Part shown: piece after piece, positions 348 through 59,523 of the stretch
Numbering within the stretch: the first letter of the stretch is position 1
Layout of the letters: each line of letters opens with the position of its first letter
NCBI GenBank assembly: GCA_030272155.1
Contig: CP126198.1
Coordinates: 1,178,001-1,242,000, forward strand
Length of the DNA stretch: 64,000 nucleotides
Source: Tetradesmus obliquus
Lineage: Eukaryota; Chlorophyta; Chlorophyceae; Sphaeropleales; Scenedesmaceae
Direction: 5' to 3'
The notes under the pieces: generated by a model
Database searches by the model: none
What the model was told of the DNA's origin: nothing
Seen by the model: the letters and a program-made list of their open reading frames with translations, nothing else
Position numbers and translations under genes: made by a program

Positions 348-3300
348 ATGGACCACCAGGCAGCTCATCGTCTGCGTGTTCTGCAGCAGCAGTTCACCAT
401 GGTAAGGCTTTAAGCAGCAGAGCGTGCGGCACACCCCAACACCGGCTGGTGCCTGACGTGTCATCCCTTTTTCACGCAGGAGCGCGAGGCAGTGGCCGGG
501 CTGAGCCTGCAGGTGGGTTTATGAGCAGCAATGTTTTTTGGTTGACACATGCCGATCGCTGCTGGTTGCCTTGCATGGGAATGGGACGCAGCTGGTGCTG
601 TGCTGCTGCTTCTGCCCCATGCTGCTCACCAAACGGCAGGGTTTCTCCCTTGCCGCTTGCAGGACTGCTCAGCCGGCGACTCAGCTGCATACCAGCGCAG
701 GAACACCAGCTTGGATGATGTCGTGATTGTTTCTGCTCTGCGCACACCCCTGACCAAGGTAGGGCACACGTGGTTGCAGAGCTAGCACACAGCAGCTAGG
801 CTGTGGCTGCTGCCCTGAGCAGCAGAGGTGCTGCGCTTTCATGCATGCTGTGCAGCTGCATGCATGTGCTCCCACGGGTGTAGAGTGCAACGTCCTTGTC
901 AGGCGACTGCAGCAAGCTGCTTGCAAGCAGCAGTTGCCGCCTATGCCAGCTCCTCGTGTCGCGCCGACCCCGTGATAGCCGTCGCGCATGAAGTTGCACA
1001 TGCAGCAGCGCAGCTGCGCCCCCAGGCATCGCCAACATGTCCCACACATGCCATGATCACACATGCCATGAGCTCTTGCACACACACCTCACCATCGCCT
1101 GTGGCCTCCTTCGCTCCTGCAGGCCAAGCGTGGCGGGCTGAAGGACACTGATGCAGTTGACTTGCTGGCCACTGTCTTCAAGGCTGTGCTGCAGCAGCCT
1201 TGCCCACATTCTCACCTGTCTGTTGCCTCTGCATCGCTGCTCTGCCCTTGCACAGGCCAAGCGTGGCGGGCTGAAGGACACTGATGCAGTGGACCTGCTT
1301 GCCACAGTCTTCAAGGCTGTGCTGCAGCAGAGCGGCATCAACCCCGCTGACATCGGCGACATTGTGGTGGGCAGCGTGCTGGGCCCCAGCAGCCAGCGCG
1401 CAAACGAGGCACGCATCGCCAGCTTCTTTGCAGGCATCCCTGAGGAGGTGCCCGTGCGCACAGTGAACAGGTGGGAAACAGGTATAGCAGCAGTATTGAC
1501 TCTTTTCTGTCCCTGCATGTCAGCTTAGATGCATGATGTTTGTAGTGCTGCGCAAACGAGGCGAGGTTTGCCAGCTTCTGTGCGGGCATCCATGAAAAGG
1601 GCCTGTGCGCACAGTGAACAGGTGGGAAGGGGTTTGCAAGCAGCAGCTTTGTGTTGTATACAGCTTGCATGTGCCTTTTGCATGCCTTTTGTGAAGTGAG
1701 GCGTGCATCGCGAGGCTCTGTGCAGGTCTTTTATGTCAGTGCCTGTGCGCACAGTGAACAGGCGGGGCAGGAGGAATCGACCGCAACGCTGTAGAGGTTT
1801 GCTCGGCTGCTTCGATGTCGGATGGTATGTGATGCTGCAGTTTGCACCTCTGTGTGCTTGGCCTTGATTGATGTAGGATGCTCGCACCAAGGCAAGCAAG
1901 GCATGTCGCGCTTATGGCTCCTGAGCTGTGCCCTAGGATGGTCGGGACCACAAGCGCTATGCTTTGCTTGCGTGTGCATTGGTCAGCACGTATGCAGTTG
2001 TGCTCTGAAACTGCACACAGCCGGGGCGCTCACTTGCGTTGGGTACAGGACGCAGCAGCAGCAGTGTGCTGCGCTGCAGTGGCCGCCTGCCCCTTATGTG
2101 TTATGGTGCTTTGACCTTGTCATGTACTAGGCAAGATAGCGTAGCTTTTACCATCATGGTCTGCTGAATGTTGTCTCTCTCGCCGGCCTATGCCTGCCTA
2201 TTTACTGCCTCTCGCGCTGCAGGCAGTGCTGCTCAGGCCTGCAGGCCATCGCCTTAGGCTGTTGAAGATCGCCTCAGGCTGTTGAAGATACAATAGCTCA
2301 CATGGTTTTGTGTCTACCTCACCTGCTGCGCTGCAGGCAGTGCTCCTCAGGCCTGCAGGCCATTGCTGACGTGGCGGCAGCCATCAAGGCGGGCTACTAC
2401 AGCGTGGGCCTGGCCGCAGGTGCGTGGCGGTGCTGCTGTTGCGCTCTTGAGTTGACGTGATGTTGTGATGTTGTGTGATTGCAGCGTGCTGTTCTGTGCA
2501 AATGCGGACCTGCATAGTGCTTGCTTTTGCATCTGTGCTAGCTCTGGTGACTTTGCGTGCCTTGGCTGTGCTTCGCGGGTGCTGTGCTGCAACTGTGGTG
2601 CTGCTGCGTCAGGCGTCGAGACCATGAGCTCCAACCCCATGGCCTGGGAGGGCGGCATCAACCCTCGCACTGCCAGTTGCTAATTTCCGCCATTGCTGGC
2701 TGTGGCTCATCCTGTCGTGTGCTGCTCTGCTGCCTTTGTTTTGCCTTCGTTATCTTGTTTCCTGCAGGCGTGGAGACCATGTCTTATAACCCCATGGCCT
2801 GGGAGGGCGGCATCAACCCCTGAACTTTCAGCTGATTCACTCCATTGCTGGCTGTTGCTCATTTTGTGTTGTGCTGCTCTGCTGCCGTTGTGTTGCCTCC
2901 TGCAGGCGTGGAGACCATGAGCTCCAACCCCATGGCCTGGGAGGGCGGCATCAATCCGGGTGTGGAGCGCTTCCCCAAGGCGCAGGGCTGCCTCATGCCC
3001 ATGGGCGTCACCAGCGAGAATGTGGCAGCGGCGTTCGGCGTGAGCAGGTGCGTGCGAGGCAGCATGTACAGCAGTTTGTAAAGCACCTTTGGTTTGCTGG
3101 CGGTGTGTCGTGCCCATGGGTGTGACCTACGAGAATGTGGCGGCAGCGATCAGCGTAAGCAGGTGCGTTCACGGCAGTGTGCTGCAGCAGTGTGCTGCTT
3201 CAGTTTGCTGCGTGCTTGCTGACCTTGTGTGCAGGCGCGTTTTGTAGCATGGGTTTTGGTGCAGCTTGTGTGTGGCATGTCCGTTTCAAAGAACGTGCAC

Positions 3301-58400: not shown

Positions 58401-59523
58401 ACCTCTGGTGTGTGATGCAGCAGATGACGTTGTGGGTGCAGCACTACAGCAGAGCCCCAGCCAGCAGGTGGTCATCCTGGTGCAGGTGGGTCACACGCTG
58501 CAGGCCTTGGAAGGAATTTTTATTTGCGCTGCCGCCAGGTGCTTTCGCATGAGATCAACCGGCGATAAGCACAGCTTGCTGCCAGTGAAAACATGGAATG
58601 ACATATCAACGTAAGAGGCTCACTCTGGCGTACAGATAGGTCGCTCTGACGTTCAGATCTCATATAAAAGTGTTTTTGCTTATGCCGCCGCCAGGTGCTG
58701 TCGCACGAGATCAACCACGGCTACGAGTACAGCGTGCTGCCGGTCGAAATTTCAAACCACTAAAGGGAACTCACTTTGTATTGGATTATTCTTGTTCTGC
58801 CGCCAGGTGCTGTCGCACGAGATCAACCACGGCTACAAGTACAGCGTGCTGCCGGTGGAGACTTTCAACGGCGCGGTCGTGCACAACATGGCGCACCTGG
58901 CGGCCATGGTGGACGGCTGTGATCAGCCGTACCTCAATTTCGGGCTGGAGGGCGGGAGGTTCGTGACGCTGGACAGGCAGCAGGTGCGCTGTAGTTTGCA
59001 TTGTTTCGATGCATACGATGCATCTTACTCATGCAATCGGCTGGAGGGCCGAAGATTTTCGACACTGGCCAGGCAGCAGCTGTTTGGATGGGCTGTTGAA
59101 CGGTATGTTGGTAGCCACGGTGGACGGCTGTGATCAGCCATACCTCAACTTTGGGCTGGAGGGCGGCCTCTTCGTTACGCTGGACAGGCAGCAGGTGCGC
59201 GGGGCTCGGTAAATTCGATTTAAACATCACTAAATCAAGAGGATTGGTGCACATGTGCAGCATCTGTGCCTTGACAAGCTGCTGTGTTGCTGCTGCTGTG
59301 TTGCTGTTTGCTTCAGGTGATTGAGCACACGCCGCACATTCTGAAGATCAACAACATTCCTTCGGATCGCAGCGAGGACCTCTTAGGAGAGGAGGCAGCA
59401 GCAGCGGCAGCAGCAGGGGCAGAGGCGGCGGCGGCAGCAGCAGCAGCAGCAGCGGGGTCTGAGCTCGGCAGTGTAGAGCTGGCTGCAGCAACTGTAGGCC
59501 AGACTGCAGAGCAGCAGCAGTAG
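52403..59523 (+). CDS. DEG/HtrA-type serine protease
   Basis: ATP-independent trypsin-like protease with PDZ-type C-terminal region, organellar or nuclear in plants. Exons: 52403-52727, 52962-53086, 53375-53458, 53927-54019, 54220-54277, 54751-54885, 55281-55459, 55624-55848, 57242-57390, 57790-57880, 58807-58983, 59317-59523; 1848 nt, 615 aa, all phases consistent. The catalytic triad is visible: His149 (ITNAHVV), Asp180 (SDLALL) and Ser259 (NPGNSGGP). A first PDZ covers about 334-410. The C-terminal part ([41 protein letters not shown]) resembles the second PDZ and tail of plant DEG2/DEG9/DEG10, as does the length. The protein ends in poly-Ala and Gln. The first about 90 residues are Ser/Arg/Pro-rich and could target a plastid or mitochondrion. 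The start ATG is the first in the frame and is uncertain. Introns hold copies of nearly every exon. Confidence 0.9.
53515..53870 (+). repeat. head copies of DEG exon 4 (catalytic Asp exon)
   Basis: Copies of the [15 protein letters not shown] segment lie near 53515-53552, 53635-53662, 53698-53752 and 53818-53862. Most follow an AG, and one lacks the first residues. The true exon starts at 53927. Confidence 0.8.
54356..55030 (+). repeat. copies of DEG exons 5 and 6 (catalytic Ser exon)
   Basis: An exon 5 tail copy ([10 protein letters not shown]) lies at 54356-54388. An exon 6 head copy ([14 protein letters not shown]) lies at about 54652-54702, before the true exon at 54751. An exon 6 tail copy at about 54945-55027 re-encodes the complete [20 protein letters not shown] stretch and donor, with few differences. 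Confidence 0.85.
55984..56930 (+). repeat. five tail copies of DEG exon 8 (PDZ end)
   Basis: The segment [20 protein letters not shown] and the following RQGQ plus donor recurs at about 55990-56070, 56175-56275, 56402-56502, 56645-56726 and 56835-56928 after the true exon end at 55848. The copies carry single-base deletions. Spacing is about 205-230 bp. Confidence 0.85.
56940..57032 (+). repeat. GGCT tetranucleotide microsatellite
   Basis: Two blocks of tandem (TGGC)n units separated by about 35 bp lie in DEG intron 8. Confidence 0.85.
57115..57565 (+). repeat. head and tail copies of DEG exon 9
   Basis: A head copy (V.DVCFTLHK, then an in-frame TAG) lies at 57115-57170, before the true exon at 57242. 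A tail copy ([20 protein letters not shown]) lies at about 57480-57562. Confidence 0.8.
57925..58490 (+). repeat. 100-bp tandem array of DEG exon 10 tails
   Basis: Exon 10 ends at 57880 with VVILVQ plus GTGGGT. Six further copies of this exon end and donor finish at 57979, 58079, 58179, 58279, 58381 and 58487. Spacing is 99, 100, 100, 100, 102 and 106 bp. The middle units are nearly identical. Confidence 0.92.
58538..59195 (+). repeat. head and tail copies of DEG exon 11
   Basis: Head copies (VLSHEIN..) begin after CGCCAG at about 58538 and 58695; the true exon starts at 58807. Tail copies ([15 protein letters not shown]) follow, a short one at about 59040-59080 and a long one at about 59118-59193 with donor GTGCGC. 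Confidence 0.8.

Follow-up and report, generated by a model that had tools for sequence, protein, structure and literature searches.

Gene content of the window

The window analysed here is a 64,000-nt stretch of the Tetradesmus obliquus assembly GCA_030272155.1 (CP126198.1, positions 1,178,001-1,242,000, forward strand), and all positions given below are relative to it. The thiolase gene was rebuilt by eye and the others by spliced alignment to proteins of relatives, with the DIL and bL34 genes and some DCAF1 exons modelled ab initio or by eye. Pfam matches back the thiolase, DIL, trypsin/PDZ (DEG-type) and L34 names, and PDB sequence matches back the DCAF1 name. The following genes were modelled.

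348-5622, +: thiolase (KAT) gene, 10 exons (348-401, 480-512, 663-758, 1256-1470, 2337-2419, 2906-3047, 3385-3631, 4231-4392, 4955-5056, 5374-5622)
7749-9544, -: copy a of a gene that we take to be PSBS-like (Pfam itself says chlorophyll a/b-binding); internal contrast
13374-41136, +: DCAF1 gene, 24 exons modelled from spliced alignment of P0122/P0123, name from PDB DCAF1 matches (exons 1-12: 13374-13520, 13849-14113, 14645-15131, 16326-16641, 17231-17326, 18342-18463, 18924-19007, 19519-19708, 21269-21469, 22471-22629, 23104-23217, 23496-23616; exons 13-24: 28989-29545, 30328-30908, 31988-32209, 32839-33056, 33756-33911, 35412-35634, 36419-36631, 37710-37855, 38745-38924, 39616-39669, 40195-40363, 40991-41136)
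25040-26699, +: copy b of the presumed PSBS-like gene, nested in a DCAF1 intron
42184-48577, -: DIL-domain gene (Pfam DIL), 8 exons modelled ab initio (42184-42288, 42775-42888, 43476-43706, 44069-44554, 45059-45201, 46046-46244, 46629-46787, 48279-48577)
50391-51230, -: bL34 gene (Pfam Ribosomal_L34), exons 51082-51230 (5' end arbitrary) and 50391-50464
52589-59523, +: DEG-type protease gene (spliced alignment of P0125; Pfam Trypsin_2, PDZ_3), 12 exons (52589-52727, 52962-53086, 53375-53458, 53927-54019, 54220-54277, 54751-54885, 55281-55459, 55624-55848, 57242-57390, 57790-57880, 58807-58983, 59317-59523)

The KAT model is a clean 460-aa open reading frame with Pfam Thiolase_N/C matches, and spliced alignment of P0003 yielded identical exons. 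The DCAF1 model is incomplete: its joined exons are not open throughout, so that frames were set exon by exon, and there is uncertainty about its 5' end and about some of its junctions. Alignment pieces at 20404-20416, 22008-22048, 25458-25510 and 30131-30144 were dropped from it, exon 22471-22629 is an ab initio model, and the model was corrected later and its frames checked. The first exon and the 5' end of the DIL gene are likewise uncertain. For the DEG gene, P0124 corresponds to OEZ86_014154. The two PSBS-like copies together served to calibrate intron against synonymous divergence.

Ordered copies of exon edges

Self-blastn of the window, with simple repeats filtered, returned 151 direct repeat pairs, of which 148 have offsets no larger than 1 kb. 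It also returned 4 inverted pairs, which are separated by 16-20 kb and form part of the PSBS-like duplication. A search of every modelled exon against the window with exons masked out recovered 113 exon-edge copies, distributed over 54 borders. All 58 copies of an exon head with its acceptor were located upstream of the exon, and all 55 copies of a tail with its donor were located downstream; this search detected neither whole-exon copies nor edge copies on the wrong side of their exon. Besides the edge copies, it yielded 11 local interior matches showing no exon edge, 13 far matches and 14 inverted ones; the far and inverted matches of the first run fell largely on CAG-type runs, as judged from an overall visual inspection rather than match by match. 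A reversed-exon control gave 4 matches, none of them local. The exon-edge copy pattern is real.

The strict order proposed in the earlier note, with acceptor and head copied upstream, tail and donor copied downstream and the true exon innermost, was observed for 113/113 edge copies, and is the one expected from tandem duplication of border-spanning segments if selection removes whole-exon and exon-internal duplications. The note was right that copies are abundant, although its figure of roughly 80 or more was low, and right that they are widespread, although they occur at about half of the borders rather than in most exons: 53/114 internal edges in the seven genes carry them (KAT 9/18, DCAF1 26/46, DIL 7/14, DEG 10/22, bL34 1/2), with 0/12 in the PSBS-like genes (0/6 in each). 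The 54th copy-bearing border is the stop codon/3'UTR border of the DIL gene, which is not a splice site. Multiple copies per edge were confirmed up to a maximum of six, not seven, with 1 copy at 22 edges, 2 at 18, 3 at 7, 4 at 3, 5 at 2 and 6 at 2. The copies are listed below; lines without a remark rest on the exon search.

Thiolase (KAT)
1123-1197, +: head copy of exon 1256-1470 (exon search; its first 17 codons show up, by alignment, as an insert in public protein OEZ86_014146)
1550-1761, +: 2 tail copies of exon 1256-1470
2223-2252, +: head copy of exon 2337-2419
2613-2819, +: 2 head copies of exon 2906-3047
3108-3162, +: tail copy of exon 2906-3047
3849-4141, +: 2 head copies and 1 interior match of exon 4231-4392 (exon search)
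4469-4545, +: tail copy of exon 4231-4392 (5/5 differences at third codon positions)
4833-4891, +: head copy of exon 4955-5056
5135-5175, +: tail copy of exon 4955-5056

DCAF1
14297-14342, +: tail copy of exon 13849-14113
15204-15658, +: 3 tail copies and 1 interior match of exon 14645-15131
15797-16276, +: 3 head copies of exon 16326-16641
17680-18041, +: 2 tail copies of exon 17231-17326
18550-18751, +: 2 tail copies of exon 18342-18463
19304-19481, +: 2 head copies of exon 19519-19708 (interior match of this exon at 20045-20112)
20552-21268, +: 6 head copies of exon 21269-21469 (alternating 116/123-bp units, 239-bp dimer)
21853-22381, +: 4 head copies of exon 22471-22629 (153-155-bp units)
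23684-23837, +: 2 tail copies of exon 23496-23616
28311-28889, +: 5 head copies of exon 28989-29545
31041-31577, +: 3 tail copies of exon 30328-30908
31740-31839, +: head copy of exon 31988-32209
32582-32702, +: head copy of exon 32839-33056
33268-33587, +: 2 head copies of exon 33756-33911
33986-34464, +: 4 tail copies of exon 33756-33911
35199-35238, +: head copy of exon 35412-35634
35685-35886, +: 2 tail copies of exon 35412-35634
36092-36361, +: 3 head copies of exon 36419-36631
36725-36869, +: 145-bp tail copy of exon 36419-36631 (third positions hold most differences)
37134-37515, +: 3 head copies of exon 37710-37855
37966-38199, +: 2 tail copies of exon 37710-37855
38401-38668, +: 3 head copies of exon 38745-38924
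39008-39296, +: 2 tail copies of exon 38745-38924
40074-40109, +: head copy of exon 40195-40363
40515-40591, +: tail copy of exon 40195-40363
40645-40920, +: 2 head copies of exon 40991-41136

DIL
41983-42127, -: 2 coding-end copies (stop codon and 3'UTR border) of exon 42184-42288
42500-42580, -: tail copy of exon 42775-42888
43028-43346, -: 3 head copies of exon 42775-42888
43938-43975, -: tail copy of exon 44069-44554
44803-44982, -: 2 tail copies of exon 45059-45201 (interior matches 45272-45319, 45488-45569)
45811-45852, -: tail copy of exon 46046-46244 (interior match 45938-45972)
46307-46366, -: head copy of exon 46046-46244
46834-47029, -: 2 head copies of exon 46629-46787

bL34
about 50742-50896, -: 2 tail copies (self-blastn and exon search)

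DEG
53517-53856, +: 4 head copies of exon 53927-54019
54353-54388, +: tail copy of exon 54220-54277
54650-54692, +: head copy of exon 54751-54885
54953-55025, +: tail copy of exon 54751-54885
55996-56927, +: 5 tail copies of exon 55624-55848 (all mutually different)
57114-57166, +: head copy of exon 57242-57390
57476-57560, +: tail copy of exon 57242-57390
57933-58485, +: 6 tail copies of exon 57790-57880 (~100-bp units, exon part identical in three)
58539-58755, +: 2 head copies of exon 58807-58983
59039-59194, +: 2 tail copies of exon 58807-58983

Structure of the units

The spacing was 96-182 bp for 86/113 copies and below 96 bp for 1/113. A unit spans the border, with about 60 bp of the exon edge on one side and, in nearly all cases, 40 nt or more of intron on the other. 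When a minimum of 40-50 nt of intron is imposed, the cut points are compatible with random placement (KS test: heads, p = 0.34 at a 40-nt minimum; tails, p = 0.86 at a 50-nt minimum; the two swapped combinations of edge type and minimum gave p = 0.04 and 0.001). Within the units, divergence is far greater in the intron halves than in the exon halves. Similarity between intron halves falls off within ~30-40 nt of the border, and in 62/105 units it is not above that of unrelated introns at p<=0.02 (above in 43/105; p>0.5 in 15/105); the first 60 nt are still at least 70% identical in 18/105 units. Exon-free repeats accounted for 4/149 local pairs, and about 33 exon-free repeat clusters would be expected under uniform duplication, as judged from 11 edge clusters, counted by hand, with still-alignable intron halves. 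Introns here grow by units straddling the border between coding and non-coding sequence, at ~145 bp per copy in 55/57 introns (r = 0.78) or 193 bp when all 57 are included (r = 0.72).

Divergence and decay of the copies

Codon differences between copies and exons were mostly silent: 430 were synonymous and 223 nonsynonymous in 124 local matches, a synonymous fraction of 0.658 (bootstrap 0.61-0.71), whereas always-neutral copies would give 0.375-0.425. Between copies, the fraction was 0.52, against a neutral expectation of 0.265-0.28. Thus, the hypothesis that the copies have been neutral since their birth from the local exon fails on both comparisons. Across 29 edges, with three recent arrays excluded, the ratio of copy-copy to copy-exon distance was 0.97 for silent changes (CI 0.80-1.16) and 1.61 for nonsynonymous ones (1.43-1.79). 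Therefore, silent divergence is evenly shared, and recent decay is private to the copies. Silent divergence was 0.17-0.25 per site across all intron-identity classes below 0.9, and no effect of rank was found, distal copies being no more decayed than exon-proximal ones.

The copies are now decaying through frameshifts, splice-base loss and random amino-acid changes. Among their indels, 24/26 are frame-breaking; in-frame stops number 7 per 2198 codons; and 7/156 amino-acid changes match relatives, with 7.5 expected at random. The acceptor AG is retained in 53/58 copies and the donor GT in 49/53 (102/111 together), a loss of 4-5% per splice base, next to roughly 4% at nonsynonymous sites by our own arithmetic. 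This numerical contrast is observed; interpreted as age, it suggests that the silent and intron divergence is older than the decay of coding and splice bases.

Origin of the copies

The reading we favour, with a probability of roughly 0.4, is that the copies stem from coding alleles that had already diverged, and not simply from the present exon, and that they arose when divergent homologous chromosomes underwent exchange or repair across exon borders. Such homologs would have diverged, with only exons similar enough for pairing, and repair or unequal exchange between them would be the most likely route. A broken exon end would pair with the partner exon, extension would carry it past the splice site into an intron that does not match, and the extended end, unable to re-anneal, would be end-joined, leaving the old edge behind. 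As the observed order shows, the functional edge stays joined to the rest of its exon, so that it is always the surplus edge that ends up in non-coding sequence. Judging from arrays with alike intron halves, some arrays may later grow when their copies undergo unequal crossing over, and the copies would then decay neutrally. This reading is supported by the strict order and the lack of whole-exon copies, the high synonymous fractions, the evenly shared silent divergence, splice-base loss close to that at nonsynonymous sites, the strongly diverged intron halves and the scarcity of exon-free repeats. The assembly of strain DOE0152z measures 208 Mb versus about 109 Mb for UTEX393 (PMC5552973); this excess probably represents unmerged haplotypes, and we count it for divergent homologs. 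Scenedesmus sp. NREL 46B-D3 is described in the available portion of PMC7955037 as likely diploid, with alleles separated. Against exchange between homologs, stepwise addition at the exon predicts a decay gradient, whereas no rank effect was seen, and simple versions are disfavoured because this age gradient is missing. Furthermore, Sphaeropleales vegetative cells are considered basically haploid (PMC5966456, excerpt), a silent divergence of ~0.2 per site would be very high for alleles of one species, and the 18/105 units with alike intron halves are what self-templating predicts.

Self-templated tandem duplication at a high rate (through slippage, template switching or the filling-in of staggered breaks), tolerated only astride borders and followed by neutral decay, would account for the strict order and the lack of whole-exon copies as well as for those 18 units. 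Random-compatible cut points, given the 40-50 nt intron requirement, the frame-breaking indels and in-frame stops, and amino-acid changes that match relatives at the random rate also agree with it. However, the synonymous fraction is excessive (0.658 versus at most 0.425 for copy-exon, 0.52 versus at most 0.28 for copy-copy comparisons), exon halves are far less diverged than intron halves, exon-free repeats are scarce and there is no age gradient with distance from the exon, and we consider this origin rather unlikely. On these four grounds, the proposal in the earlier note that slippage or a similar process acts generally and is simply put up with by introns is not supported either.

Concerted evolution of old in-situ duplications, in which conversion or contraction into the exon places the copies under indirect selection and intron halves drift, is unlikely as well. 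It would be in line with divergence flat with rank, copy-copy silent distances nearly equal to copy-exon ones, the similar silent divergence in every intron-identity class below 0.9 and the intermediate constraint on the copies. However, it needs a product of exchange rate and population size above 1, which by a rough estimate is marginal unless diversity is extreme; conversion without selection would, by reasoning, leave the synonymous fraction unraised; and the scarcity of young exon-free repeats is left unexplained.

Stitching of two divergent haplotypes during assembly, placing the exon edge of the other allele alongside, would yield exon-limited, allelic, ordered copies, and divergent separated alleles have been reported in the related Scenedesmus (PMC7955037, same portion). 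Yet a single edge can have as many as 5 copies that all differ from one another (55996-56927), too many for two haplotypes, which argues against such an artefact, as do the regular arrays (e.g., 116/123 bp x 6, about 100 bp x 6). Less directly, the separate UTEX393 assembly also has long introns, with a mean of 462 bp in the excerpt of PMC5966456, compared with 311 bp over the 17 introns of the window that lack copies. We regard this explanation as quite improbable. Selection keeping the copies as decoy splice sites, for splicing or intron-retention regulation, is very improbable despite the intact AG or GT in 102/111 splice-border copies: splice-base loss about equals nonsynonymous-site loss, so that no extra constraint on copy splice sites is seen, one copy-bearing edge is a stop-codon/3'UTR border, and a splicing role would not be expected to give codon-phase bias.

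Comparison with known systems

Tandem duplication underlies the AGGT model of intron gain, in which an exonic AGGT, once duplicated, creates an intron at a new position, and the staggered-nick duplications of plants form a comparable class. Minisatellite and satellite arrays in introns share the tandem units and some higher-order periodicity (the 239-bp dimer), but the arrays described here belong to no single family, each being built from its own neighbouring exon edge. As in tandem exon duplication with mutually exclusive exons, exon sequence is repeated beside the exon; unlike there, no whole exons were found, each edge copy holds one edge, and the copies have frame-breaking indels. Intron gain by tandem genomic duplication, for example in potato RdRp, as presented in the excerpt of PMC4974935, likewise involves short within-gene tandem duplication, tolerated since it is spliced out, whereas the present copies lie inside introns, include the edge of the adjacent exon together with the splice site of that edge and build up arrays of several copies. 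Small tandem duplications from 3'-overhang breaks, Pol alpha-primase fill-in and end-joining, outlined in part of PMC8355091, are direct head-to-tail duplications of a similar general kind. However, with a self template the introns would be identical at the start, and coding-type divergence and border specificity are not predicted by the mechanism as outlined there. Introners and intron-generating transposons (PMC9860276, excerpt) also change intron content in a lineage-specific manner, but no dispersed family was seen within the window, where 2/151 direct pairs are >2 kb apart.

Implications

About half of the checked borders carry ordered edge copies with mostly silent differences, unlike the outcome of duplication and neutral decay. 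This would identify a route of intron lengthening in the lineage, at the ~145 bp per copy given above, and it shows how gene prediction can be misled in this group, one such copy being present as an insert in a public protein. In a broader and more doubtful extension of the divergent-homolog reading, exon borders would trap repair between divergent homologs, and failed exchanges would archive coding haplotypes in introns, largely setting the intron length of the lineage. If the divergent-homolog reading is true, the introns would hold fossilized coding alleles, and genome sequence would directly record the failed recombination of chromosomes that had diverged.

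Order and anatomy of the exon-edge copies

Direct repeat pairs numbered 151 when the window was compared with itself, and 148 of them were offset by at most 1 kb; the 4 inverted pairs all lay 16-20 kb apart. When the exons were searched against the exon-masked window, 58 head copies (acceptor plus exon start) and 55 tail copies (exon end plus donor) were recovered, every head copy lying upstream and every tail copy downstream of its exon, with no whole-exon copies and no copies on the wrong side. The same search returned 11 interior local, 13 far and 14 inverted matches, and a control with reversed exons gave 4 matches, none of them local. 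The exon-edge copy pattern is real: the ordered exon-fragment copies described in the earlier note from sequence alone were borne out by both the self-comparison and the exon search that it had proposed as checks. All counts refer to this one 64-kb window. No published description of such an architecture was among the matches listed by a literature search that reached few subscription journals.

The gene names proposed earlier were likewise backed, by Pfam for the thiolase, DIL, trypsin/PDZ (DEG-type) and L34 genes and by PDB sequence matches for DCAF1. Gene models came from an untrained small gene HMM with strong intron penalties and from protein-based modelling; the DIL and bL34 exons are ab initio or by-eye calls, the DCAF1 and DIL exons do not give an uninterrupted reading frame once joined, and the DCAF1 model is incomplete, with frames assigned per exon.

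Copies were present at 53 of 114 internal exon edges, with 1 to 6 copies per edge (54 edges, including the DIL stop edge). At that DIL edge the coding sequence ends in a stop codon and the 3'UTR begins, so the border that matters is the one between coding and non-coding sequence and not the splice site itself. The 113 spacings between neighbouring copies dropped off sharply below about 96-100 bp and fell into two clusters separated by a gap: 1 spacing was below 96 bp, 86 were 96-182 bp, none 183-201 bp, 24 were 202-275 bp and 2 were larger. We define a unit as the exon half of a copy together with its intron half. In the first 105 units, the set that preceded the addition of two arrays, the exon part had a median of 59 bp and the intron part was shorter than 50 nt in 5. 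A unit centred on the splice site seemed indicated at first (KS p ~1e-10), but the signal was gone once an intron minimum of 40-50 nt was allowed; given the intron floor and a detection limit of ~30 bp, random placement of the cuts fits the data. A GTAAT pentanucleotide array of ~20 copies (17406-17506) adjoins exon-tail copies in a DCAF1 intron.

Intron length rose by ~145 bp per copy with an intercept of 318 bp (55 introns), or by 193 bp per copy with an intercept of 276 over all 57 introns. Since the 17 copy-free introns averaged 311 bp, much of the intron length here is due to copies.

A copy taken up in a public protein

The protein OEZ86_014146 of Tetradesmus obliquus is identical to our thiolase model save for one insert of 17 residues, encoded by the exon-head copy at 1123-1173. 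The insert is absent from four aligned relatives, including a transcript-derived protein (P0003) that is 95% identical. Judging from these alignments, the public gene model likely includes the copy as an exon through annotation error, although the insert may be a rare real isoform. Screening of 243 proteins for swallowed copies found internal repeats in 5, of which OEZ86_014146 is the exon-edge case.

The PSBS-like genes lack copies

Two genes with a Pfam chlorophyll a/b-binding match, which we take to be PSBS-like, lie in the window:

7749-9544, minus strand: PSBS-like copy a, chlorophyll a/b-binding (Pfam)
25040-26699, plus strand: PSBS-like copy b, nested within an intron of DCAF1 and duplicating copy a in inverted orientation

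Their exons are 94-98% identical, and exon-edge copies were found at none of their 12 edges but at 53 of the other 102 (hypergeometric p 3e-4). By eye, one protein of Scenedesmus sp. NREL 46B-D3 (P0122) opens with PSBS-like sequence and goes on as the latter half of DCAF1; in another (P0126), PSBS-like sequence is fused to DEG. These two gene models appear chimeric and suggest that a PSBS-like gene may sit within DCAF1 in that species as well.

Divergence of the copies is of coding type

Copies and exons differed by 430 silent and 223 amino-acid changes over 2365 codons, in 124 framed local matches (113 edge copies and 11 interior). The silent fraction was 0.658 (bootstrap over edges 0.61-0.71), or 0.655 with one copy per edge, against an expectation of 0.375-0.425 for copies that evolved neutrally from the outset, with constraint on the exon alone, computed from the intron mutation spectrum with CpG effects varied over a range. 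Between copies, where both sides are now intronic, it was 0.52 versus the 0.265-0.28 expected under neutral change. This divergence is of coding type and does not fit neutral tandem duplication. By script, the reading frames of 56 of 60 exons agreed with the spliced models, and those of the other 4, DCAF1 exons 8-11, were verified by eye alone; a codon-phase test made without gene models gave a weak excess (p<=0.05 in 17 of 135 pairs), the reading frame being needed.

In many units the intron halves show weak similarity at best. Anchored identity, ~0.9 inside the exon, dropped within 30-40 nt of the border to 0.3-0.4, and the intron halves exceeded unrelated introns at p<=0.02 in 43 of 105 units, whereas 62 did not. 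Repeats free of exon sequence were also rare: among 149 local pairs (offset <2 kb), 106 involved a modelled exon, 23 copies only, 13 the 20.3-21.3 kb array and 3 bL34, leaving 4 in no class. A uniform rate would predict ~33 exon-free clusters, as reckoned from 11 edge clusters with still-aligning intron halves (a hand count that includes the 20.5-21.3 kb array; DUST-filtered simple repeats and short-period arrays are excluded from the exon-free count). Finally, silent and nonsynonymous differences per codon were alike at ranks 1, 2, 3 and >=4 counted from the exon (edge copies only). Among the 115 local matches of the first exon search, the silent share was 17/28 at 95-100% identity, lower than the 132/170 at 90-95%, and so fits a simple age series poorly. 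Four observations thus do not fit tandem duplication tolerated in introns, as proposed earlier, followed by neutral decay: coding-type divergence, intron halves weakly similar at best in many units, scarce exon-free repeats and the lack of an age gradient.

The copies are now dead as coding sequence. In 115 local matches from the first exon search, 24 of 26 indels broke the frame, and 7 in-frame stops occurred in 2198 codons. Among edge copies, the ratio of copy-copy to copy-exon distance was 1.61 (CI 1.43-1.79) at nonsynonymous sites, the mark of change private to copies, and 0.97 (CI 0.80-1.16), that is, equal, at silent sites. Acceptor AG was retained in 53 of 58 copies and donor GT in 49 of 53, a loss of ~4-5% per base, near the ~4% at nonsynonymous sites.

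Proposed origin from diverged alleles

By arithmetic, decay at exon-constrained sites amounts to ~4% in the copies versus ~10% per lineage at silent sites. On the simplest reading, the copy and exon lineages would have split well before the copy's coding role ended, so that the copy would stem from another allele that had already diverged. Introgression from another species was rejected: of 156 distinct amino-acid variants in copies from the thiolase, DEG and DCAF1 genes, 7 matched relatives, with 7.5 expected by chance. The copies resemble pairs such as the apparently working PSBS-like genes at greater silent distance: that pair shows 0.08 silent changes per site and 78-83% aligned intron identity with many gaps, and the copies (the 105 units) 0.20 per site, two to three times as much, a calibration (like the mutation spectrum) drawn from this single paralog pair with three intron pairs.

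Origin from diverged alleles could proceed through exchange between divergent homologs, whose introns would hardly align and whose exons would form islands of similarity. A broken exon end would pair with the partner exon and be extended beyond the splice site; the extended end, now in unlike intron, would fail to re-anneal, and end-joining with the other broken end would leave the old exon edge stranded within the intron together with its splice site. One such step would explain how the copies are ordered, why they are confined to borders, why they diverge as coding sequence does and why their intron halves are unlike. The intron minimum of 40-50 nt may stem from limits of flap removal or from a requirement for a functional splice site. 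Some arrays whose intron halves are alike, 57933-58179 and 22008-22471 among them, appear to have expanded afterwards through unequal crossing over. The main difficulty for homolog exchange is the absent rank gradient, which would require array turnover or conversion, and concerted evolution of the copies with the exon, plus indirect selection, is a serious rival.

Divergent haplotypes are reported in the group: Scenedesmus sp. NREL 46B-D3 is described as probably diploid, its alleles having been separated (PMC7955037), and the assembly of strain DOE0152z, 208 Mb versus ~109 Mb for UTEX393 (PMC5552973), may reflect unmerged haplotypes. Speaking against origin from diverged alleles, vegetative cells of Sphaeropleales are considered basically haploid (PMC5966456).
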